From: Chondrilla cf. caribensis
Lineage: Eukaryota; Porifera; Demospongiae; Chondrillida; Chondrillidae
Length of the DNA: 64,000 nt
Assembly (NCBI GenBank): GCA_964020155.1
Contig: OZ026556.1
Location: forward strand, 2,044,001-2,108,000
Direction: 5' to 3'
This document shows positions 18,119 through 61,440 of this stretch, piece after piece (the first letter of the stretch is position 1; each line of letters opens with the position of its first letter). The translations under genes and the position numbers were made by a program. The notes under the pieces were generated by a model. That model did no database searches and was not told the origin of the DNA. It saw only the letters and a program-made list of their open reading frames with translations.

Positions 18119-39071
<20,953 letters not shown>

Positions 39072-46477: not shown

Positions 46478-47040
46478 TCATTTGATCAATGCAGCAACAC
46501 TGCTGATGACTCCCATCAACTGTTTGGCTTTCTTCACATGAAACACTCTGGATGGAGACCCGGTAATTTTTTTCAGGAATTTTGGGTTCTTCTGTCCAAA
46601 CCCGATAGCAATTCTCGCTATACCGTTGGTCTCCAGCTCTTCAATTGCTCTCTTCAAGGCACGCTTTCCGATACCTTCTCTATTCCGTCCATCAGTCAAC
46701 AAAATGAGAGTTGGAGTTGCGTGAGACAATCCCCTTCCAGAATTGGCAAAGAGATTGGTTGCGGTATCCAAACCACGTATAGTATTTCTCGCCCCTGTTT
46801 GCCCGAGTCTCATCATGTTAGTCACCCTTCTTTTAATCACATTCAAATCATGGAAAGCATTAAAGTTGAACTCAATTTCAACATCATCAGTATACTTGAT
46901 GACGGCAACATGTGTTTGATTTTCACAAATCTCTAAGCTATCCAGTAAATTTACTGCAAGCCTTTTTTCCAATTCAAATGAATTGTTACTAAGATAGTTG
47001 GAGGAATCGATCATAAACAATAGGTCTTTTTTCTGGTGAG
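46478..47040 (-). CDS. M8 gene exon 20, C-terminal vWA domain
   Basis: Acceptor gatcag gives phase 1 and DLLFMIDSSNYLSNNSFE, the first vWA strand. The MIDAS motif DxSxS reads DSSNY (second Ser replaced by Tyr); the MIDAS Thr (GQTGARNT) and Asp (LLTDGRNREG) are present. It continues IARIAIGFGQKNP to the natural stop. Integrin/matrilin-like vWA. Confidence 0.92.
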
Positions 47041-47122
47041 CTGATCATGAATTAGAGAAGAAAATTGAAATAGAATGATGTATTAATTTGGTATCAGAGT
47101 TATATACTCACTCACTCACTCA

Positions 47123-47195
<73 letters not shown>

Positions 47196-48076
47196 TCAAA
47201 CATACACACTCACACACACACACATTGAAACACACACTCACACACACTTGCTCTTATGATACATGTATGCATGTATGAAGCACATGCAAGCACACATACA
47301 AGCCTACATTTAATGATTTACTGAATAAAAAGCTATGTAGCAAATGTACATGTGGATGTTATCAATCCAACTACCCTTAACCATATAAAGTGAACCTTTA
47401 ACACAGAATCATTGTAAAGTATATTGAAGCAAGCAAATATATGCTTCGATTATTCATTAGGTATACCTATATAAATCTGTTGAGAATATTATTGAAAGAT
47501 CTATTGTATACAGTCTGTAGTGGGTGATGGAACAAACATGCATGGTGTGGAAATGCACATACGTACGCATTTCGCAGTATTGTCCTTTCCATCCACAGCG
47601 ACAGCAGCACTTGTCCACACCACAGCATGTTCCACCATTCAGACATGCAAGAGAACATCGACGCTATGTTGGTGGATCCAGAATACAATATTCATAAAAA
47701 ATGTTCATAATATATTTTGGTTCTTTTCTAGTGTAGTTAAATAGCAGAGCATGTTCCAAGTACAAGATCAGCCACTTACCCAACACATGTCTTGATATGG
47801 AGGACACTTGAGATACATGACATTAGAGAAATTCGAACTTGTTTGTGTTTGATCAACAAGTATCTACATATACGGATGAATGAACATGAAGATACACATA
47901 ACCACACATGCTCCATAGATACTTGCACATGCATACTATACCTAAGGACACAACATAGTGCACATAGGTATAAGTTGACATACTACACAAACATACACAC
48001 ACCTGGTCCAATACATGCCTACTGCAGAGACTGACACACATTTATGTACACACACAAGCAAACTGTACAAACACAT

Positions 48077-48151
<75 letters not shown>

Positions 48152-51100
48152 GACACATTCACACATATACACATGTACACGCGCACACACACCGAAAGAT
48201 ACAGTCACACATATTATGCTTGAGCATACACGCAATATATACAGCCAAAACACACATATACAATGTATTGAACATAACAGAATTCACACACATGAACATA
48301 CCCTCTGACCAGGCATCAAACAGGTATGATTCTTTCCTTGGATAGTTATCACTACATGACTATCTGTACAGTAATGCTGTAGATGAAAACAGAGTCTGTA
48401 TCATTCCGCTGTAGTGAACATTGTACAGTAGTAGTTGTGTATTACGGAGGTAAATAATCCATGTACATATCGCACACATACCATACTATAAATATTACTA
48501 CTTAAGCATGTTCTGGTGTGCGTGTGTGCGTGTGTGTATGCGTGCACGTATGTGTGTGTGCATGCATGTGTGTGTTGTGCGCAGTCAGATGAACTGCATT
48601 TGTACTTGAGCTATAGTAGTAGGGTAATAATTAATCTAGGTACGGTATCACTCTATCACTACAGAAGGACGATGTACATATGTATAGGAAGGTATTGTGT
48701 ACTCAATCGAGTAATATGATCGAGGAATGAAAAATTCTAATCATACCAACAAAGTATACAATAAATAGCAACTGAAGGTACAAACATTTGAAACAAGATA
48801 CGTTACACTCAGTTTTCCTGCCCACCTGATAACAGCCACTACCCTTGGCTGGCTGCATCTGGGCTCCTTGGTACATCCAATTTTTTAGGATCTCCCACTC
48901 AATGCAACCAGATTGATAACTAAACGTCTCCGCAAACACATTAGTGGCTAGCAGTAGAGTGTGCAAAGAGCATTACAAGTGTTGGACTATTTGTATCGAA
49001 TTCAAACTTGTACAGAGAGATTAGAGACACATGCAGTAGGCTAACCTGAACTGGGTTGATTCAGAGGAGATAGACACCATCTGAAACCCTGTGGACAAGT
49101 ACCACTTTTGATATAAATATACCACACATTATTATGAGTATACACATAGATGGGGATACATAATACAGATTTATACATACAACTCAGCACATTTGTATAT
49201 TAAGCACATAAACTTAAGTATACATGACATATATCAACAGATACATAATTATTCTTCAGGACCTGGTATAATGGAACTCACAGTACGTAAGGGACAGTAG
49301 TCTGTAGTTTGATATCGGCCTCCTTCATAGGGGTTTAAAAAGTACTGTTGGCACAAGTGTAAACATCAGAAACATGGTAATTTTACATTAAAATTTAGCA
49401 TGCATACATAATACAATTACACTAACATTCCAATAGACCATAGACCAATATAGGTATGTATTATACCTGGTATTGAGATGGAACTGGTGTTGTGTGTTGA
49501 ATCAGATCACATATGGCAAGGCTTGTCCTATCGTATGTACATTTTGTATCGTATCCACTAAAATGAGGTAGGTTTCGTGGTTTAGCCGATGACACCATCT
49601 CGGAGCAGTAGGGATCATTGGAGAGTCTGAATGAGTGTTCAAAAGACAACATTATATAATTCAACATTATAGAAAGTAACTGTTTATATCACCATATTAA
49701 TAGAAGAAAAACACTGTCACACTATGCTGTTTTCATTTTCAACAGTTACGAATATACAAGACTATAGTGCATATGAGTGTGTACCCAAACGAATAGCAAC
49801 TTTTCTGAGCAAAGTCGCATCCTAGGTTCAGGACACATCGTAGAGGATCAGCGCAGGAGAAGTCAACATCATACCACCTGTAGGGAGATTGATCAAAGTC
49901 AGCAATTGAACATGCGTGGGAGATATACAATTCCAACCATTAAACAGAATATATCTGTAACACAGTAATTATGCCTACCATGAGGTATTAGACTGAGTAC
50001 TACATTATCCTATCCAAGCTCACCCTGTATCTTTTAGAAGTGCAAGAGTTAACCTGGAGAAGGCTGCATTCACGTGAATTGACCCAGTCATACCTTCTTC
50101 CTAAATGGGTGTAGAATTCTAATGATAGGACACCTGACATTGATTATTATAACTATGTAATGATATTATACTTAGTCTATTAATATAGAATAAATTTCTG
50201 TGAAATGAATATCTATCATAATATGATGTGCATATGAATATGATATATCATAGTCATATAAGTATGCTAGTGCTTTCAACACATACAGCTACAATTAAAA
50301 AGGGGAGATAAGCAAATGTAAAGACTTAGTCTAATTACTGGACATTGTGCTATTGGTGTAAGACACAGTGAGAAAGGAGTAACATGCACAGTCATGCATG
50401 GCAAAATCAATCTGACTAAATTTCATTGGCATACATGGAAAATCCTGCGTTTCCAATGACTAAATGAAGTTACAATAGACCCTTTATCCTCCAGTTCCAA
50501 TCCTTTCAATGTAGAACAATTAAAGTGCCTTCTTGCTTCCATCTAGGTTGGTGAGAAGTACCATTAATTATGTATATTCAGTAAGTGACAATGAAATAAA
50601 TGAATTGCCAAGCTGTTGGCCAAGGCTAATGATACTCTGACTTACATCCAGCCTTGATGCTATCACATACCTGTACGGTGGGTGTTACCATGTAGGTGAC
50701 ATTGAACATGTGTCGTCCTGTGATACTTCTTTTCTCAACAGTCTCAGTGAGAATGGTATTGTTACTTGGAATATAACTGAGGTGAGATATTATAATTATA
50801 ACATTTTTATGACACAATTATCTTTTCCATTGTATTATGATATGAAGTCAATTGGCAGACTGATAAAACTATCTTTATAATATCTGATTCATCATGCAAT
50901 TAATTTTGGTATGTATGTATTTAATTTAATTAATGAACAATGTAAAGACTGTTCAAATTAAACTATTCTAAGTTCAATCTATTTATTGAATTCTATGAAA
51001 ACTATGAATATGTTATGTGAGAAATTGCCTATATAATTCCAGTATAGCAGTAAGCAAAAAGTATGTATAATACAGGGTAGTCTCGAATGTACAACACATG

Positions 51101-54100
51101 AATGCAAGAAATGAAATAATGATGTCAGGTGATTGTCTGCATGTTCTGTATGTAGCTATGTTTACAACTCAGTAGTTGACCTCCAGTTGGACGAGAGAAT
51201 TTTTAATATTAGTCCCTAAGTGCAAGTGTCCATAGTGTAAGTACCTAACTACAGTACCCAGGTAAAGTCACACATACTAAATCACAATTATTCTCACTAA
51301 TTGCACATACATTCTTTTGGCTCGGTCAATGCCCAGGATTGGTAGGTTGGTGATTGGGTGACGAGGTGTGAGGGGATTTCCATTGTGATCACGGAAGAAA
51401 GCATAGTTAGGAGGAATAAAACCCTATATAGAAACAAGTGATTGAAATTAAAACACTGGTAGAACTGCCAACATACCCCGCATTATAACTTGCATTATTC
51501 GGGAATTTCTCTCAGGTTTAAAAGAACATTCACTGTATATATATGTTGCTTAAAGCTGTTACTTTCAAGTTCCAGCCAAATTTCGAATTATGGGAATTAA
51601 AATCAGCCATCATTTTTCATGCATCATTATTATAATATATATTCCCTGATTGCAATTATGCATTGGAATCCACATTAAAACACTATGCATAATGCAGAAT
51701 ATTTATCATAATATACTGGATTGTAACATACAGGAAGTTGAAATTCAATCCAACATTTAATTTGACCATTTTAAATAGCATTAAATTTTTATGGCTCATG
51801 CGACCCAGTCGAGCAAATTAAACTATACGAAGCTAAACATTGTATGACAAATTCCTGCAGAGATGTCAGGATTATTGTAAATACCGCAATAAACATTTGT
51901 TCCAGCTAAGAAATCCAGAGGATTAATAAGAATTCACTATGCACGTCCACTTTTATCGATGATAATCGTTAGAGTATAACTGATTAATTTCCGAACAAAT
52001 CTCACAGGCTAGTTATGACGGACATCCGTACTCCGATTTTGGGCATCTGTGGAATGGAATGTCGAATATTTATTGCCAACGTAACAACTCACAAAGATTT
52101 GATTGCACTGTGAGTTCCTTCAGGCAACAAATTCACAAGAAATGGTCATGAATAATAATATGTTAATGGCCTTTTTAAGTTGTATATACCAAATCTAGTA
52201 TAGCAGAAACACTCACCAGTAAGTGCACCATCTCATGTTTAGCCAGTGACCTCCAGATTTCAAGTGGATATCTTCGAAGGTTTTTCATGCAAAAATTTAT
52301 GGCTCCTGCCACAGGTCTGTATGTGAAATAAAATTAGCACGTTTATAATACTTCATAATCAATAAACTTTGAATCAATACTAATAATGATGTTATGTTAT
52401 CTCTATAGCATAGGTGACCATGATCCCATCAAACTAATCAAGCAAACTTGAGATTTATCTCTAATGGTGTGAGGTATGGTCTCATCTTCAGTGGAGAGCA
52501 TTAATTATAAATTATTCTTGGCATCAATTAATCATTATTAATCTGACCTATCCAATCCCCTTTCGCGGTAGCAATTGTGGCTAAATCCAAGAAAACTTCC
52601 AGTACATCCGATGGATTCATTGGCTGAGATGTAAACGGCATAGTCAGCATCAGGAACACCAGGGCCACTGGGTATTGCAATTGCGCAATTTTGACCAGTC
52701 GAATCACTGCACACAATGCATGCCTACATGATTTTGATATCATCAAAATAATCATAATAAGATTAAGATTTTAAAACATTCAACAAACAGTATTAATTCC
52801 ACAGATATATAAATGTAATTTCAAGTGACACGTGGCTATGTTATGAAAAGCGACCAGATAATCAATAACAAATGTATATTCAATACTATAATCATATTGA
52901 TGTGTGGATATTCACATATATGTAACATGATTATGGCTCCATAGAAAATATTATATTACATATATATTCAAAACTATAATCATACTATACATGTGTACAT
53001 TGCCTACACTTACTGCAAAGTGGCTCTCAGGCAAATCTGCCCATCCACACTTTGGACGTGGACAAAGAACAGGGTCTTGAGGTGTGCAGTATCTCCTAGA
53101 ACCACATCCTCCTCTAAATATAGTGTATAGGTGAACAATTTTCGGGAAAACATATAATGATTCAGAAAATGCCCTGTATGTATGTTGCATGAGCAACGTA
53201 CCTGCTGTATATAATAGGCTCCAGTGTACTCCGAGCCATCAGTGTTTTCTTGAAGTATTCTGTGGCATAATTTACCACGCCCTGCAACATATTATGTACA
53301 TCTGAAGTAAAACAACAGTTACTGCTAATGCTACCGTGTTATTATAATAATTGACTTCATATTCTATTGTGTGCATGTGTAATAAATTGAGCGTTTGATA
53401 ATTATTTATTACATCTTTCTTAATAATAATAATGAGCATTCATGATCTCAGGACACTTCTTACAAATAAGCATTTACACTGTATTGAAAAGGCATGACTA
53501 GTGACAAGAATCCTCTGAAAAAACAGAAAAAATAAATCTTAAAGACATACGTACCTTGAGTACATTTCTGATTTGATCACCAAGCCTAATAAACAGCATT
53601 GAAATGGAGGTAATTACACAGTAACTGTAACAGCACTGGTTTTTAGATTAATCTTACTAGCAATTAAATGCACACGCAATACACAGTGTGAAGTGAAAAC
53701 TTAGATGCAAGTTGTACATGTGGACACACTGCATGTATTCTGATGAAGTTAGCCAGAACATCATATAGGTACAGGAGAGGTAATTTCAATCAATAAGCAA
53801 CACATGCTTGTTGACGGTGACCTTTCCTGTGCCCACAAATAAGGTCTTCATCCCAGGACCTCCATACCTGCACACCCTTTGCTTCTTTTACACTAAAGTA
53901 ATCTTAAAGCAATTCGATTCAATCGCTTTTGTAAATGGTTTAACCAAACTGGTTTGGCATGTTCACACACTTGCAAGTTAAAGCACTTCGAGTTTAAAGC
54001 ACCTACTTTAGCCTAAGCACTCTAGTAACATGTTCTAAACTACATGGTTAAATTCTGATTTAGCCTCAACTCAATTCAGCTGTTTCATCACATTCATCAG

Positions 54101-56532
54101 GTTTTAACAGTAAACATAACTGTTTACTGTTGAAATCTGTCAATTCTCAGGGCATTAATCCAAACAATCCCTTAAAACAGCAGAAACTTAGAGAAGTGAC
54201 AATTATGTCCAGGCCTGTTTTGAATAAATTCCAGTTGCTAGCTATCTGAATAACAACCTGTTTATAAACAAAGTAAGCTTGGGTCCCACATAATCCCAGA
54301 GAATCTTCTAATCTTACATAAATGTTATGTCTGTAACAATAGCCCAAATTTGGGTTTTTGTTACCTCCCAAAATTGGGTTTTTATGCATACTCAAGAGTT
54401 GTATGCGTACTGTTAATGTTCAAAACAGCTTACATAAAATTACAGTGAAACAGTAAATAGTTGAGGACTGTTAAAACAGAATTCAACGACATACTTCAGA
54501 ACATGTTTAGTGTAAAAGGAGCTGTTGACTAGGAGGAGTTTAACCAGATCAACTAATTAAAATTGACCCACTTAAAATTTCACTAATTGAATTTGTGACT
54601 ACATGAGCATTGCAATAATACTGGTGGAAATATACCATTATTTTGGTGGATTTGAAGAAGTGTATTCTCCAGTAAGCACCCATGGTCACCTTCATGCCCA
54701 TTCAAGCATGAAAAAACATGTTTACGCACTTGAGCAGACTACTGTGGTTTCCTGAACTCCAATCATAATTGGACACCAGTATTGTGATAATGGTAATCGG
54801 TAATTGCAATCGGCTGTTTTTAATTGCACACTTCTAAGCAATCGTAATTTAATTGTAATCGACATTCCTTTAGTTGCAGTAATAGTAATGGTAGTTGATA
54901 ACATTCAAATGTCTTGTGCACTGTGCTAATCAGTGGTGGTTAGCACCCACCGATTTTGGTGGGTTTGCCTTGTCCCTGATAACCCACCATTATTTGGTGG
55001 GTATTAACCACCATAAGCTATTGGTGGGTGCTATCCACCAGCCAAAATTATATTGGTGGGTTTATAACACACCATTGTGAAATGGACATGGAATGACAGC
55101 TAATTATATTCATTGACACTTTTAATATTATTCATAGATTCTCATATATTGAGTATATTATCATTCACTAATGGATATCTATAATGCTATAATAATTATG
55201 TTGCATCCAATATATCGGTATAATGAACATAATTTACAGACATGCATACAGGCATGTGGTTGGACAGCAATTACACAAGACACACATTTACATTACACAA
55301 TTGCATATTACATGCAATTTCATTCACCAGCTCTCACTCAAACAACACACACCCTCTAAAAGGGATACTTTATGTATAATATGCTATGCCTGTGCTTGGA
55401 TAACCACTCAGCAATAAGTACACTGCATGGTATTCATATTCCAAATTTTCTAATTGTATGTATCCATTAGTATCTACTTTGTACATGTTATTTAATTAAT
55501 AATCCTTGGAGGCAACTGCTAATTATGGATTTGCAGCTTATAGTGTAATCTACAAATATTTTAGTATTACAGTTAATTTGCAATGACTTACTGATCAATT
55601 GTAGCATCATAAAACGGCCGAATGCGCAATCCTTTAGCAGACTGACGTTTTTGTCTAACGTGTACTTCAGCTGCACCAGCAGCATAGTGGATCTAATTGT
55701 TGATGGGACAGAAATAGCTGTAACCATGGATAATGTCAGTATAATGTATCAGGCTAGCAAATATGTTGTAACTTGACAATGTGGAAAAACGTAGAAAAAT
55801 GTTAGTGGTATTTATGTACCATTACAAAAACATAGGCATTGAGCCTGTTATTGATTTCTACTGTGATATAGGACTTTGAGATTGTAGACATGTAGATTTA
55901 TCATTCCTGATGTATTCCGGGTTCTTCGCTGTTCTTTCACTCTGTAGTCAAGTCCGTCCGAAAGCTCATCCCTTTGTCCGGCGGATATATATCGATTACT
56001 AATCGGACGCTATTTTGTGATCGTCTCTAGCAGAGCGATACGATAGGCTACGAGGATCTTACCGAGTGGAGAACAACTACATGTAATGGCCTATTCAAAC
56101 AAAGTTTTTGGGAGTCGGTAGGTTTAAATTAATTTTATACTTTTCGAGAAATAGCGATTTTTATGTGTCCGAATATAGGTGGTGTTCGATATAATTTGAT
56201 ACTTACTCTACTTCAAGCGCGTGTTTTAGGTTTTCAGACCCCTTTAAAGGTGACAGTTCCTTGTGTTTCACCCAGAACCACGTTTACAATAACAATTTTC
56301 TGGTGTAAGCTTTACAAGAACCACGTTCTTCAATAGATTCCTACGGTTAGCAACCGCTGCCGTCCAGACCGCACAGACGTACCTCTGGTCCATCCCGGTA
56401 TTGATCCAAGTATTCATGAGCGCATTCAGGTTCTTCCGCTCCAGAATGGCCATTGATGTCAATGCCAGCTGACAGCAGCACGGCAAAACTAAAACTCAGT
56501 GCCACAAGCCAAAACACACGTTCCAGTGCCAT
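46478..56532 (-). CDS. Leishmanolysin-like M8 metallopeptidase with EGF-like and C-terminal vWA domains
   Basis: Zinc endopeptidase of family M8 (leishmanolysin/invadolysin), predicted secreted. Twenty exons: 56532-56383, 55692-55592, 53585-53555, 53281-53202, 53113-53014, 52723-52548, 52316-52217, 51423-51311, 50776-50671, 50542-50435, 50100-50024, 49877-49785, 49626-49467, 49344-49282, 49088-49046, 48947-48826, 48376-48302, 47863-47780, 47663-47567, 47040-46478; total 2442 nt, all phases consistent. Signal peptide (MALERVFWLVALSFSF); propeptide with ECAHEYL (candidate Cys switch) and basic HVRQKR; GVPDADYAVYISA; zinc site HEMVH with third His in SFSHWKRR; MTGSIHVNAAFSRLTLALL; GWYDVDFSCAD; C-terminal Cys-rich region to KCPPYQDMCW. 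Then one Cys-rich EGF-like exon and a vWA domain ending at TGA (46478-46480). LMLN proteins normally stop after the M8 region, so the EGF-vWA tail is unusual. Confidence 0.92.
47115..47197. repeat. (CA)n microsatellite
   Basis: CACT repeats passing into pure CA in the intron before the vWA exon. Confidence 0.95.
47567..47663 (-). CDS. M8 gene exon 19, Cys-rich EGF-like module
   Basis: Encodes RRCSLACLNGGTCCGVDKC, then CCRCGWKGQYC. EGF spacing with three extra cysteines. Phase 0 to 1. Confidence 0.88.
48078..48147. repeat. (CA)n microsatellite
   Basis: Pure CA tract in the intron between exons 17 and 18 of the M8 gene. Confidence 0.95.
50435..50542 (-). CDS. M8 gene exon 10, third zinc ligand
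   Basis: A small exon in an otherwise AT-rich stretch: MEARRHFNCSTLKGLELED then SFSHWKRR. The His of SHW is the expected third zinc ligand of M8 peptidases. Phase 0-0, donor GTATGC. Confidence 0.92.
51424..52216. other. M8 gene intron, no feature recognised
   Basis: Splits the HEMVHLL and GF residues of the zinc motif; no repeat recognised. Confidence 0.5.
52217..52316 (-). CDS. M8 gene exon 7, catalytic HEMVH
   Basis: Encodes RPVAGAINFCMKNLRRYPLE, then SLAKHEMVHLL: first two zinc ligands (His) and the catalytic Glu of the HExxH motif. The next exon continues GFIPPNYAFFRD, giving HEMVHLLGF as expected for M8. Confidence 0.95.
53880..54530. mobile_element. Candidate MITE with CTTTTACACTAAA ends
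   Basis: Left end gcttcttttacactaaag (about 53881-53898) matches the complement of the right end tttagtgtaaaaggagc (about 54509-54525). It contains a 10-bp perfect hairpin acagtaaaca / tgtttactgt (about 54107-54130). No ORF or clear TSD. In intron 2 of the M8 gene. Confidence 0.55.
54925..55085. repeat. Cluster of alternating tggtgggt / acccacca motifs
   Basis: At least eight short direct and inverted copies of the GGTGGGT motif in 160 bp, able to form several alternative hairpins. In intron 2 of the M8 gene. Confidence 0.75.
55900..56240. repeat. Segmental duplication, unoccupied copy
   Basis: Collinear with 57400-57622 plus 61719-61830 (gtattccgggttcttc, gtccgtccgaaag, ctctagcagagc, gctacgaggat, gactacatgtaatggcct). 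It serves as the empty site for the LTR element. Confidence 0.8.
56383..56532 (-). CDS. M8 gene exon 1, signal peptide
   Basis: The Met at 56532 opens directly into a hydrophobic signal sequence; an in-frame ATG at 56568 is less suitable. Donor CAGAG|GTACGT gives phase 0, matching exon 2 (IHYAAGAAEVHVRQKR). Confidence 0.85.
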
Positions 56533-57622: not shown

Positions 57623-57853
57623 TGTCGTATGATGGTCATTGGTCGGTTAGTATCATATTCGAGTCACTCAAGAAGATGACATTGTGTACAAAGATCAGCA
57701 TGCACTTCATATAGAGTTAGATACATGAGGTAATAAGACACAAAGGAATAAAGGTCATGAAAATCACTTATAGCTATAGACAGACAGATAAATCAGGCCT
57801 AAACACTTATGCAGTTGAATAGATATTGTTACTAGCTACACTAAGTTATGCCA
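57623..57853 (-). repeat. 3' LTR
   Basis: 231 bp, clearly similar to the 5' LTR but with several substitutions and indels (for example gacattgtgtac versus gtgtac), so the insertion is not very recent. Confidence 0.9.
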
Positions 57854-58221
57854 CATCTCCCTTCCTCCGGTAGGTCAGTCTCTCTGGAGGTCTGATAGCT
57901 GCACCGGAACGTAGCCACGTCATCACGTTAGATTGTGGGGTTGGGGTGATTGGTAGTTGGTGGTACAGTAGTTTCTGGTATGCTGGTGCTAGATGAAGTT
58001 GGTTCCTACGTACTTGACCAGAGGGTGTTGACACAATGTAGGCCGGACCTCGGTGTACTTGAGGCAGATGTGATACGTCCTGGAATTTGGTTGTTGTTGG
58101 TACGAACCCAGACTTGGGCATCATCCGGGAACTGGGGTAGTGACTTGGTTTGGTGGCGTCTGTCATATATATAGTTGAACTTCTGCTGAGCTTTGAACTC
58201 TTTATCTTTGTTGGCAAATAA

Positions 58222-58905
58222 TTACAGATATGGCCACTGGGGTACAAAATTCTTGCTGACTTGTGGTACATCTGTACAGATGCGTCTACCCATCAGTAAT
58301 TCTGCTGGACTAAATCCACACCAGGGGAGTGGGGTTGATCTGTAGGTGAGCATGGCCATGTAGGGATCAGTTGATCGGTTAAGTAGTTGTTTCACTGCCT
58401 TCACAGTTGATTCGACTTGTCCATTACTTTGAGGGTAATGGGGGCTGCTGGTGGTGTGAGTGAAGGAATATTCCGAAGCGAATGCTTCCATAGCTGTTGA
58501 ATCAAATTGAGGGCCATTGTCACTTATCATCACTGCCAGGATTCCGTATCTTGAAAATATTGCTATCAGAGCATTGATAATGCTCTTCGATGTGATGGAT
58601 ATTAGCTTCACTGCTTCTGGAAACCTTGAAAAGTAATCCACTACGAGAAGGTATGTGGATCCATTCAACTCAAAGAGGTCTTCACCCACCTTACTCCCAT
58701 GGATGATTGGGTAATGGAGAGGGGATCAAGGGTTCTCTGTGTTGAGGATGATTCTTGGTGCATTCTGGACATCTGTTCACATACTCTTCTATTTCACAGG
58801 ATACCCTGGGCCACCACACAGCTCTGGGAATGCATTCTCCACATCATTGGATGCCTTGATGTCCCCGATGAATCTTCTGTAGAGTTTGCCTTTGGAGACA
58901 TTTGA
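58222..58905 (-). pseudogene. gypsy integrase core
   Basis: Contains VVDYFSRFPEAV, ISDNGPQFDS and SNGQVESTVK, the D,D(35)E residues of the integrase core, preceded at 58844-59161 by a zinc-finger part (HRGHQGIQ). A stop lies between the two parts. Confidence 0.85.
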
Positions 58906-59182
58906 CGATGACGATTCTGTCCCTGAAAAGTAACAGACGATCATGAATTGTTAACGCACTCTTAGCGAACCAGTAGGGGACTAGATCTCCCTTCAAAGTG
59001 TTGTGTTGAGGCCATCCTTCACAGCAATATGTGAGGAAAGTGGAGCAAGTAGGATCTGTTGCTTGTGCAGAACGATATGACTCGAGACAATCCTTGTTTA
59101 CTGGAAGTTGTGATGAAGTGTGAGAAGTGATCTCTTCCAAGTGTTTTGTTGTGTGAGGCAAAGGGGCTCTTGAAAGGGTATA

Positions 59183-59583
59183 TCAGCAGTGTACAGAAAT
59201 TTCCCTGGAACATGGGCGATGGCATAATGAAATCTCATCGGTCGTAGGTGAAAGTGGAAGTTGATCCAAACTCTTGGTGGAAAGGATAGGGACAAGGGGC
59301 TTGTGATCTGTTTCAATGTGGAACTGCTTCCCAATCAGATACTTAGAAAATTTCTCAGATGCCCAGGTGGCTGCTAATGCTTCTATCTCGATCTGAGCAT
59401 ACCGAGTCTCGAGCTCCATCTCCGACATTGACCTTGAGGCATAGGGACTGGTTTCCAACCTTCATCTGGTGTTGTAGTACTGCTCCCAAGCCATAGGCTG
59501 ACGTAGGCTAAAACTTTGGTTTCACGGGTGGGGTCGTAGTGGGCTAGAACTGTTGGCTGGGAGAGAACCTCTTTGATCTTCAC
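59183..59583 (-). pseudogene. gypsy RNase H region, broken
   Basis: Two overlapping frames: VLAHYDPTRETKV, then EIEALAATWASEKFSKYL and HIETDHKPLVPIL. The TDHKPL block is characteristic of gypsy RNase H. Confidence 0.8.
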
Positions 59584-59845
59584 AAAGGCTTCCTCCTGTC
59601 AGGGTCCCCACAACCAGGCTCTCTTGGCATTGAGTAGCTCTCTCAGGGGCTTCGATACCTCTGCTACTTGAGGAGAAACTTTGCTGAGCTGGTTGACCGT
59701 TCCCATGAAACGGTGCAACTCTGATACTGTTGAGGGTGCCTTCATCTGGCAGATTGCTGTGGTCTTCTTAGGGTCTGGTGCGATACCTTCCTTGCTGATG
59801 ACATGGCCAAGGAATGTAAGCTTCTCCTTGTTGAATTTGCACTTG

Positions 59846-60847
59846 TCAGGATTCAGTGTGACTCCACTTGACTGGATTCAGTGTGACTCCACTTGACTGG
59901 ATTCTTTTGAGGGCAACAACGAGTCTGCGGTCATGCTCTTCTTGGCTGCATCTATGACTCAGAATATCATCCATCTGACAAAGAACACCATCGAGACCTG
60001 ACAAGATTTTGCTCATTCTCTTCTGAAAGTGTTCTGGAGCGCTGGAGATAACATAAGGCATTTTATTGAAACAGTATCTTCCGAACGAGATAATGAAGGT
60101 CGTCAAATGGCCAGAGGTCTTTGCTAATGGAATTTGCCAAAATCGGCTATTTGCATCATGTAGCTTGGAAAAGACGACTGCGCCAGCTAATTGAGCAAGG
60201 GTGTCATCCACTTTCGGAAGGGGGTGTACCTCCCTGAGTACACTCTCATTCAGTGGCTTGAGATCAACACAAATGTGGATGTCTCCTGACCTCTTTGGTA
60301 ACAGCTTCAATGCTACAATTGCTGTGAGTCCGAGGAGATTGGATTTCAGCTTTTCGAGAACGTAGATGTGTTGCTTGCATGATGCTTTCCCTATACTGAG
60401 TTTGACTTCATTTGTGCCTAAAACTTTCAGTGGCTTGCGATCTAGGCCACAAAGGGTCTTGTTGGGTTGGCTAAGCTTTCTGCCATGGATGGATTGAAAG
60501 GTTTCCAGCGAAATAGCTGTTACCTCCGATCCTGTGTCAAGTTTGAAAGGCTTCGTCTGTCCGTTGATTTTTACATGCGATGTCCAGGATTTGTCTCCAG
60601 CGGTGTAGACAGTATTGAGATAACAAGTGTCGGGCTCCTCTTCCACTGTCCCTACAGACTTCGATTGGCAAACCGAACTAAAAAGGCCTTTCTTTTTGCA
60701 TTTGTGGCACACTGCTTGGCTGGCTGGGCATTCTGCTCGGGGGTGGGGACTTCTCCCACATTGAAAACACTTTCTATTACTCTTTTGTGGTGTGGACCCA
60801 TGGCGAGATGTCTGTGGTTTAGCATTTGGTCGGGATGAAGGTTGCAT
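59846..60847 (-). pseudogene. gypsy zinc knuckle, protease and RT
   Basis: One 333-codon frame: CFQCGRSPHPRAEC and CHKCKKKGLF (the first knuckle is intact in spacing; the second lacks its His), LDTGSEVTA (aspartic protease), ICVDLKPLNESV and the RT core. The usual Y-x-D-D active site reads QMDD. It ends at a 24-bp tandem duplication (about 59851-59900). Confidence 0.85.
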
Positions 60848-60858
60848 GGTTCCTTCGT

Positions 60859-61440
60859 TTAAAATTCGATTTGTACTTCATCGCGATAATGAGCTTGGCT
60901 CTTGTTTGATTCCGGATTCGAGGATTTCATGTTGCTCCTGAACTGCTTCCCGCTGGCGAATAGACTTCTTGGCTTGGTTAAATCGGCGTCCATTTGGAGT
61001 CGTTCAGACAAGGACTTGTCGCGGATTCCCACTACAAGACGATCACGGATCATTTTGTCCGTAAGATCACCATAGGCGCAGTTTTCTACGAGGCGGTATA
61101 CAATACTGTGATGTACTGTTCTGACGTTTCGTCCGGCAATTGGTTCCTGCGACTAAATCGTTCAAAGATAACGTTCTTTCTCACTTAGAAAAGCCCGTCA
61201 AATTTGGCTAGAACGGTCGTACTTCTTTCTTTCGTCGACGTCGATGTGCGTGGACCTCGAAACGTCCTCTGCCGCTTCGCCGGTCTCTTCTAGGCAATAA
61301 AATAATGTGCTGACCTGACGTTGCTCGGGATAGTCGGATAAACCTGACGCTGATCGGAACTGTTCAAACCTCCTTTCCATCGCGGTCACTCGTCGGAGTT
61401 CTTGAAGTTGAAGGGATCTGGCGGCTGTAATCATAACTGT
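60859..61440 (-). pseudogene. gypsy gag region, broken
   Basis: Starts near SLQLQELRRVTAMERRFEQF and continues in other frames (DRLVVGIRDKSLSERLQMD is a typical gag helix). At least one frame change separates the parts. Confidence 0.75.

Follow-up and report, generated by a model that had tools for sequence, protein, structure and literature searches.

A predicted M8 metallopeptidase with an EGF-like module and a vWA domain, in a gene array of Chondrilla cf. caribensis that also holds sister genes with a possible anchor-like tail

Gene structure

M8 proteases are membrane-tethered or free secreted enzymes. The analysed stretch of DNA from the sponge Chondrilla cf. caribensis (64,000 nucleotides, C11:2044001-2108000; hereafter the window) carries on its minus strand a predicted M8 protease gene, here copy B, that ends in an EGF-like module and a vWA domain. 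We consider it very probable that the gene encodes a single M8–EGF-like–vWA protein, and probable that this is a secreted zinc-dependent M8 protease (leishmanolysin/invadolysin-type) whose anchor-encoding end was swapped for EGF-like and vWA exons. The gene was compared with the genome of the sponge (137 Mb in 37 contigs) and with known proteins. Copy B has the following features (window coordinates):

46478..56532, minus: whole gene, 20 exons, 813 codons plus stop TGA, M8 protease, EGF-like module and vWA domain
56383..56532, minus: exon 1, ATG, hydrophobic signal sequence, start of the prodomain with C37-x-H39
55592..55692, minus: exon 2, end of the prodomain with RQKR (residues 63-66), a furin-like site
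52217..52316, minus: exon 7, HEMVH, residues 240-244 (52223-52237), with the catalytic Glu and the first two zinc ligands
50435..50542, minus: exon 10, SHW, residues 347-349 (50453-50461), with the third zinc ligand H348
50024..50100, minus: exon 11, EEGMTG with Met-turn M359 (50089-50091)
47780..49877, minus: exons 12-18, M8 Cys-rich C-terminal part, ending PPYQDMCW at a phase-0 intron
47567..47663, minus: exon 19, phase 0 to 1, EGF-like module CSLACLNGGTCCGVDKCCCRCGWKGQYC
47041..47566, minus: intron 19, GT-AG, contains a (TG)n run
46478..47040, minus: exon 20, 563 nucleotides (nt) from a phase-1 acceptor through TGA, a single full vWA domain

The spliced model comprises 2442 nt with no internal stop, AG at 19/19 acceptors and GT at 19/19 donors, reproducing the twenty exons without a phase conflict, the 813 codons and the natural stop of the original prediction. 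The proposed zinc ligands were located in HEMVH and SHW, and in a domain check of the 813-codon product Pfam matched both Peptidase_M8 and VWA above their cut-offs. The signal peptide claimed for exon 1 stands as a hydrophobic sequence (residues 1 to ~22), judged by eye from its hydrophobicity.

M8 protease unit

Peptidase_M8 (PF01457) is matched with 185 bits (cut-off 21) in two stretches, the best of which, residues 301-594, extends over the Cys-rich end that had been claimed. The sole solved M8 structure matched, leishmanolysin (1LML), aligns over residues 304-599 (E 5e-24). Alignment A1, with eight proteins, shows H240, H244, H348 and M359 as invariant but not E241, since a protein of Halichondria panicea (P0087) has HQLIH where HExxH is expected and for this reason is probably not an active protease. 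C37, or C37-x-H39, aligns with the Cys, or C-x-H, of 5/7 M8 relatives in the same alignment, and would mark a candidate cysteine-switch position. By its PF01457 match, HExxH, distant His and Met-turn, the predicted product of copy B is a member of Peptidase family M8, and it is filed here as an M8 protease whose tail is new.

vWA domain

Exon 20 encodes a full vWA domain up to the natural stop, in agreement with the original prediction: VWA (PF00092) is matched at residues 632-801 with 104.8 bits (cut-off 23.8; E 7.7e-30), and an AlphaFold2 model of the exon, built with 18 aligned sequences of the same genome, adopts the vWA fold with a mean predicted local distance difference test score (pLDDT) of 86.1 and a predicted template modelling score (pTM) of 0.88. 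Foldseek ranks the N2 domain of collagen VI alpha3 first (E 6e-14; template modelling score, TM, 0.84) and places integrin I domains, collagen VI N5 and VWF A1 next.

The metal ion-dependent adhesion site (MIDAS) has the motif DxSxS...T...D. Its three parts in copy B, as seen in a column comparison of 18 rows for the first two, are:

46994..47008, minus: degenerate first MIDAS motif, D638-S-S640-N-Y642, with Tyr in place of Ser
46787..46789, minus: second MIDAS position, R711 instead of Thr
46691..46693, minus: third MIDAS position, D743 retained

Two of the five MIDAS residues (Y642 and R711) are thus changed in 3/3 M8 rows of alignment A2, and 15/15 non-M8 vWA rows of the same genome retain Ser/Thr and Thr at these positions. 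This alignment has 18 rows from 20 vWA loci (of 36 and 88 matches in two genome searches); the window copy stands for L027, and copy A (identical exon, with the same MIDAS changes) and L039 (has a stop) were excluded. The M8 vWA therefore has no complete MIDAS (DSSNY, R for T, D present), and because two MIDAS residues are changed, binding by this domain is likely to be metal-independent. Collagen VI vWA domains are mostly without a conserved MIDAS, and there are vWA domains that bind outside it (PMC3919171).

None of the non-M8 vWA relatives in the genome, which are 23-34% identical to the M8 vWA, could be singled out as donor of its exon, and a scan of viral contigs with this exon gave no match. 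At 9 of 16 other vWA loci a phase-1 acceptor is the sole candidate no more than 15 nt from where the domain begins, which is compatible with exon shuffling and no proof of it.

EGF-like module

Residues 597-625, encoded by exon 19, fit both classical EGF cysteine patterns (the six-Cys pattern CxCxxGWxGxxC at residue 613), and the exon 19 module shares 55% identity with a neighbouring EGF, located at window 28337-28423 (tblastn E 1.7e-7). The EGF-like module that had been claimed is upheld by this pattern and this similarity, and not by Pfam recognition. The neighbouring EGF at 28337-28423 itself scores E 3e-4 and 21.4 bits against Pfam EGF and EGF_2, below their cut-offs of 21.5 and 22.1, and a second EGF of the same neighbouring stretch (26439-26525) is above both. 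Exon 19 encodes nine cysteines, so that an extra disulfide is possible.

Also on the minus strand, 21 EGF-like matches at window 19470-28423 mark a multi-EGF gene adjoining the M8 gene, and a stretch similar to this region lies at C11:2132940-2143826.

Gene array and anchor-like tail

Copy B is one of at least six M8 genes on this contig; the M8 copy number is a lower bound, and further M8 copies may exist in the genome. The others (C11 coordinates) are:

2032407..2022351, minus: copy A, same contig and strand as B, 20 exons
2165551..2155019, minus: copy C, same contig and strand as B, 20 exons
2179317..2168485, minus: copy D, same contig and strand as B, 20 exons
1959011 (exon 18 match): gene E, found through exon 18
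1970512 (exon 18 match): gene F, found through exon 18

The exons of A, C and D have the same 20 lengths as those of B, apart from 3 nt deleted from the first exon of copy C, with AG/GT at every intron, a frame open through the vWA and no out-of-frame indel. As exon lengths, splice sites and frames are kept in A, C and D, the twenty exons are more than a chance chain. All four copies are open over 812-813 codons and retain the zinc ligands and the Met-turn. Copies A and B lie in two 27.8-kb stretches (C11:2018956-2046770 and 2087091-2114896), 99.46% identical and 68 kb apart, which would be either a recent segmental duplication or an unpurged haplotype. The vWA of copy C is 92% and that of copy D 84% identical to that of B at the amino-acid level.

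Genes E and F match query exons 12, 13 and 15-18 (E also exon 14) in the fetched stretches, at 42-93% identity per aligned piece, some pieces extending into introns. There is no EGF or vWA match in the 4.5-5 kb downstream of their exon 18, and the vWA family search placed no VWA between the E/F exon 18 region and C11:2010057. After exon 18 (DMCW, phase 0), both genes have a possible splice to a phase-0 acceptor, reading SYSISSKPPTTMRPTSKGTSCVRVAMVTIIITVILGTVAQYH, then a stop. The resulting candidate tail of 42 residues, SYSISSKPPTT...VAMVTIIITVILGTVAQYH, differs by one residue between E and F, and can form a hydrophobic, glycosylphosphatidylinositol (GPI)-signal-like end. Searches with tblastn and blastn over the window and 20 fetched stretches recovered this tail in E and F (E 4e-24 and 6e-24), with 0.27 as the best value anywhere else, and gave no homologue of it in A-D.

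A more distant family of M8 genes lies on another contig, C3. In its gene g3, a small phase 0-to-1 exon is followed by a hydrophobic last exon ending VDSLLLAATILFILILCLV (exons read by eye), and these two exons share their phases with exons 19 and 20 of copy B. The tail of the gene at C3:5.77 Mb is unreadable, its stretch being mostly N, and the closest listed VWA match is >0.8 Mb from the C3 M8 genes. With a hydrophobic stretch defined as 17 residues of mean Kyte-Doolittle value >= 1.9, one occurs in the last 40 residues of 56/96 M8 database matches listed, fragments included; the copy B protein tail reaches 0.89, below this threshold.

Transcripts of copy B that end before the vWA would have counted against the original prediction, and this was checked in the sequence: scans for hydrophobic phase-1 tails, covering intron 19 and a few kb of DNA beyond copies B, C and D, gave none, and the searches above gave no E/F-type tail; the A-D scans covered these two kinds of tail. 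A retained alternative anchor exon in the vWA-bearing copies was accordingly rejected, with none in the phase-1 scans or E/F tail searches.

From these comparisons it seems rather likely that the EGF-like and vWA tail replaced an anchor end.

Comparison with known proteins

The original prediction held that leishmanolysin-like proteins usually lack a vWA tail, which agrees with the proteins retrieved here. Candidates were selected by shared 5-residue words and limited lengths, part of them were scored, and the Pfam assignments were precomputed. In the full-length search (7994 candidates scored), 0/96 PF01457 proteins among 100 listed carry PF00092; a five-sequence profile listed 28 proteins, all M8 and none with PF00092, 21 of them new, giving 117 distinct M8 proteins with PF00092 in 0/117. 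A search with the EGF and vWA region gave none at E<=1e-5 among 1231 candidates, and none of 10 M8 proteins rescanned with Pfam has a VWA. The view that the architecture had not been described is borne out to the extent that no paper on an M8-vWA protein was among the matches listed in a literature search (titles and abstract openings).

Copy B shares HExxH...H...Met-turn, the Cys-rich C-terminal part and C-x-H in most prodomains with invadolysin/LMLN (MEROPS M8; PF01457), with ~30-35% identity in the top fifty matches. They differ in what follows the M8 unit: invadolysin/LMLN proteins end after it, 56 of the 96 listed with a hydrophobic tail, whereas copy B continues with EGF-like module and vWA and so departs from the invadolysin/LMLN orthologue group, for which a GPI-signal-like end would be expected. 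Leishmania gp63 (1LML) is GPI-anchored and shares the M8 catalytic unit, but is without EGF or vWA. Predicted M8 and EGF-type modules are combined in Halichondria panicea (P0087), Diadema antillarum (P0088) and a pedinophyte alga (P0121); these proteins are without VWA, and P0087 and P0088 carry several EGFs. The vWA of collagen VI alpha3 and the integrin alpha I domains share the fold of the copy B vWA (TM 0.81-0.85 on the query), and collagen VI domains also share the mostly missing MIDAS, but these proteins have no protease and are ~20% identical. Within the genome, vWA-EGF genes at C6:5.777-5.788 Mb and C11:2010063-2012041 also place these two types of module next to each other, but have no M8 unit in the stretches read, and their vWA is 27-29% identical.

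Another vWA exon, 27.5% identical to the M8 vWA, comes after EGF modules at L048 (C11:2008501-2013500), so that both modules stand in the same order as in the M8 gene; L048 lies ~10 kb downstream of copy A.

Proposed mode of action

As a gene model, copy B combines a signal sequence, a prodomain with C-x-H and RQKR, HEMVH...SHW...Met-turn, a Cys-rich end, an EGF-like module and a vWA domain. A furin-type enzyme would remove the prodomain and thereby free the active site. The phase-0 exon after exon 18 would encode a hydrophobic tail of 42 residues in E and F, and A-D have EGF-like and vWA exons at this place, so that the enzyme without an anchor would leave the cell. The vWA could then bind it to a partner, either in the matrix or on a different surface, and cutting would take place there; given the two changed MIDAS residues, this binding would proceed without a metal ion at the MIDAS. 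That the vWA addresses the enzyme to such a partner is somewhat favoured. After the gain of EGF-like and vWA exons, the gene would have multiplied into four copies. The six M8 genes arrayed along this contig would hold both states of the swap, two genes with the anchor-like end and four with EGF-like and vWA exons (two near-identical), and there is a slight balance in favour of the view that the swap made a tethered M8 protease soluble and addressed by a vWA without a metal site.

If this is true, an adhesion module has taken the place of an anchor, and a single array keeps the forms from before and after the exchange. Exon shuffling would then have cleanly changed the site of protease action, testable by comparing E/F-type with A-D-type proteins, and an adhesive vWA would occur in an enzyme family where it was not expected.

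Several points weigh against this reading. The gene structure is a prediction from genomic sequence, and the 50-residue piece around exon 19 matches no Pfam family at E<=10. At 99.46% identity, A and B are not independent and count as one. The remaining vWA loci of the 16 have phase-2 acceptors only (2), are ambiguous (2) or have none within 15 nt (3). The E/F comparison covers the region of exons 12-18, and the tail exon of E and F is one option among several short phase-0 ends. Invadolysin has a predicted GPI site, and its plasma form was reported to lack a GPI link (PMC6899020); a predicted anchor therefore need not be used. Constraint on the vWA exon is non-significant in B-D (omega 0.78, p 0.47) and C-D (omega 0.63, p 0.09), the whole protein does not differ significantly from neutral in B-D (p 0.14) and C-D (p 0.23), and omega reaches 1.06 both in the C-D comparison of the M8 part and in the B-D comparison of the EGF exon. 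When identity is counted per aligned base, many single introns of the B-C pair (0.94-0.98) are no less similar than the exons (0.954).

Alternative explanations

A real vWA tail could also serve self-assembly, masking of the active site, or binding to the surfaces of symbionts or microbes in a diversifying defence family. The degenerate MIDAS fits such a role, as do the amount of amino-acid change among copies (B-D dN 0.088, dS 0.111) and the tandem expansion to four copies plus E and F on C11. This explanation, which partly overlaps with addressing to a matrix or surface partner, has a modest chance of being right.

We regard it as improbable that the copies are decaying duplicates under relaxed constraint, with little or no functional product. 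The recent duplication speaks for decay, as does a whole-protein omega (the ratio dN/dS) of ~0.8 against D that is not significantly distinct from neutral. Against it, four frames are open over their full length with zinc ligands and Met-turn retained, no exon has an out-of-frame indel, and the B-C pair is constrained. For B-C, B-D and C-D, dN/dS is 0.25, 0.78 and 0.63 in the vWA exon and 0.44, 0.79 and 0.84 in the whole protein; in B-C the silent excess is significant both in the vWA exon (dS 0.148, dN 0.037; Fisher p 0.0003) and in the whole gene (Fisher p 9e-5). Selective constraint is demonstrated for B-C alone of the three copy pairs. Over all alignment columns, identity to B is 0.69 (C) and 0.56 (D) in introns versus 0.95 and 0.91 in exons, with large intron indels.

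Equally doubtful is a history of loss, in which an ancestral EGF-vWA end disappeared from E, F and the C3 genes. That the comparison covers few genes of the family speaks for it; yet E, F and C3 g3 can end hydrophobically, as do 56/96 listed M8 proteins elsewhere, and VWA is carried by 0/117 M8 proteins retrieved elsewhere. As VWA is absent from these 117 and hydrophobic tails occur elsewhere, a single gain of EGF-like and vWA exons in place of an anchor is the simplest history.

The exon 19-20 junction rests on splice consensus and phase, and a start codon of its own for the vWA exon was named in the original prediction as evidence against a joint gene. No usable in-frame start precedes the domain: S-A are the sole in-frame residues upstream of it before a stop, and the first in-frame Met falls inside the first strand of the structure model, so that exon 20 cannot start a gene alone. 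The acceptor (gatcag, then CTCACC), the phase and the stop position are the same in four copies, with similar exon 19-20 spacing (intron 19 of 526 nt in B, 486 in C, 418 in D and 518 in A), and a transcript that skipped the 97 nt of exon 19 would lose the reading frame. Together with the lack of an alternative tail in the scans made, this makes it very improbable that the 20-exon chain is a paper chimera and the vWA exon a separate gene or the exon of a rare isoform.

Other features of the region and genome

Just upstream of the M8 gene, at window 57846-60877 on the minus strand, there are fragments resembling gag/pol of a long terminal repeat (LTR) retrotransposon, as judged by eye. Elsewhere in the genome, the vWA family search gave four matches of identical score at C9:891391-927294, spaced ~11-12 kb apart, which suggests a recent tandem vWA array.

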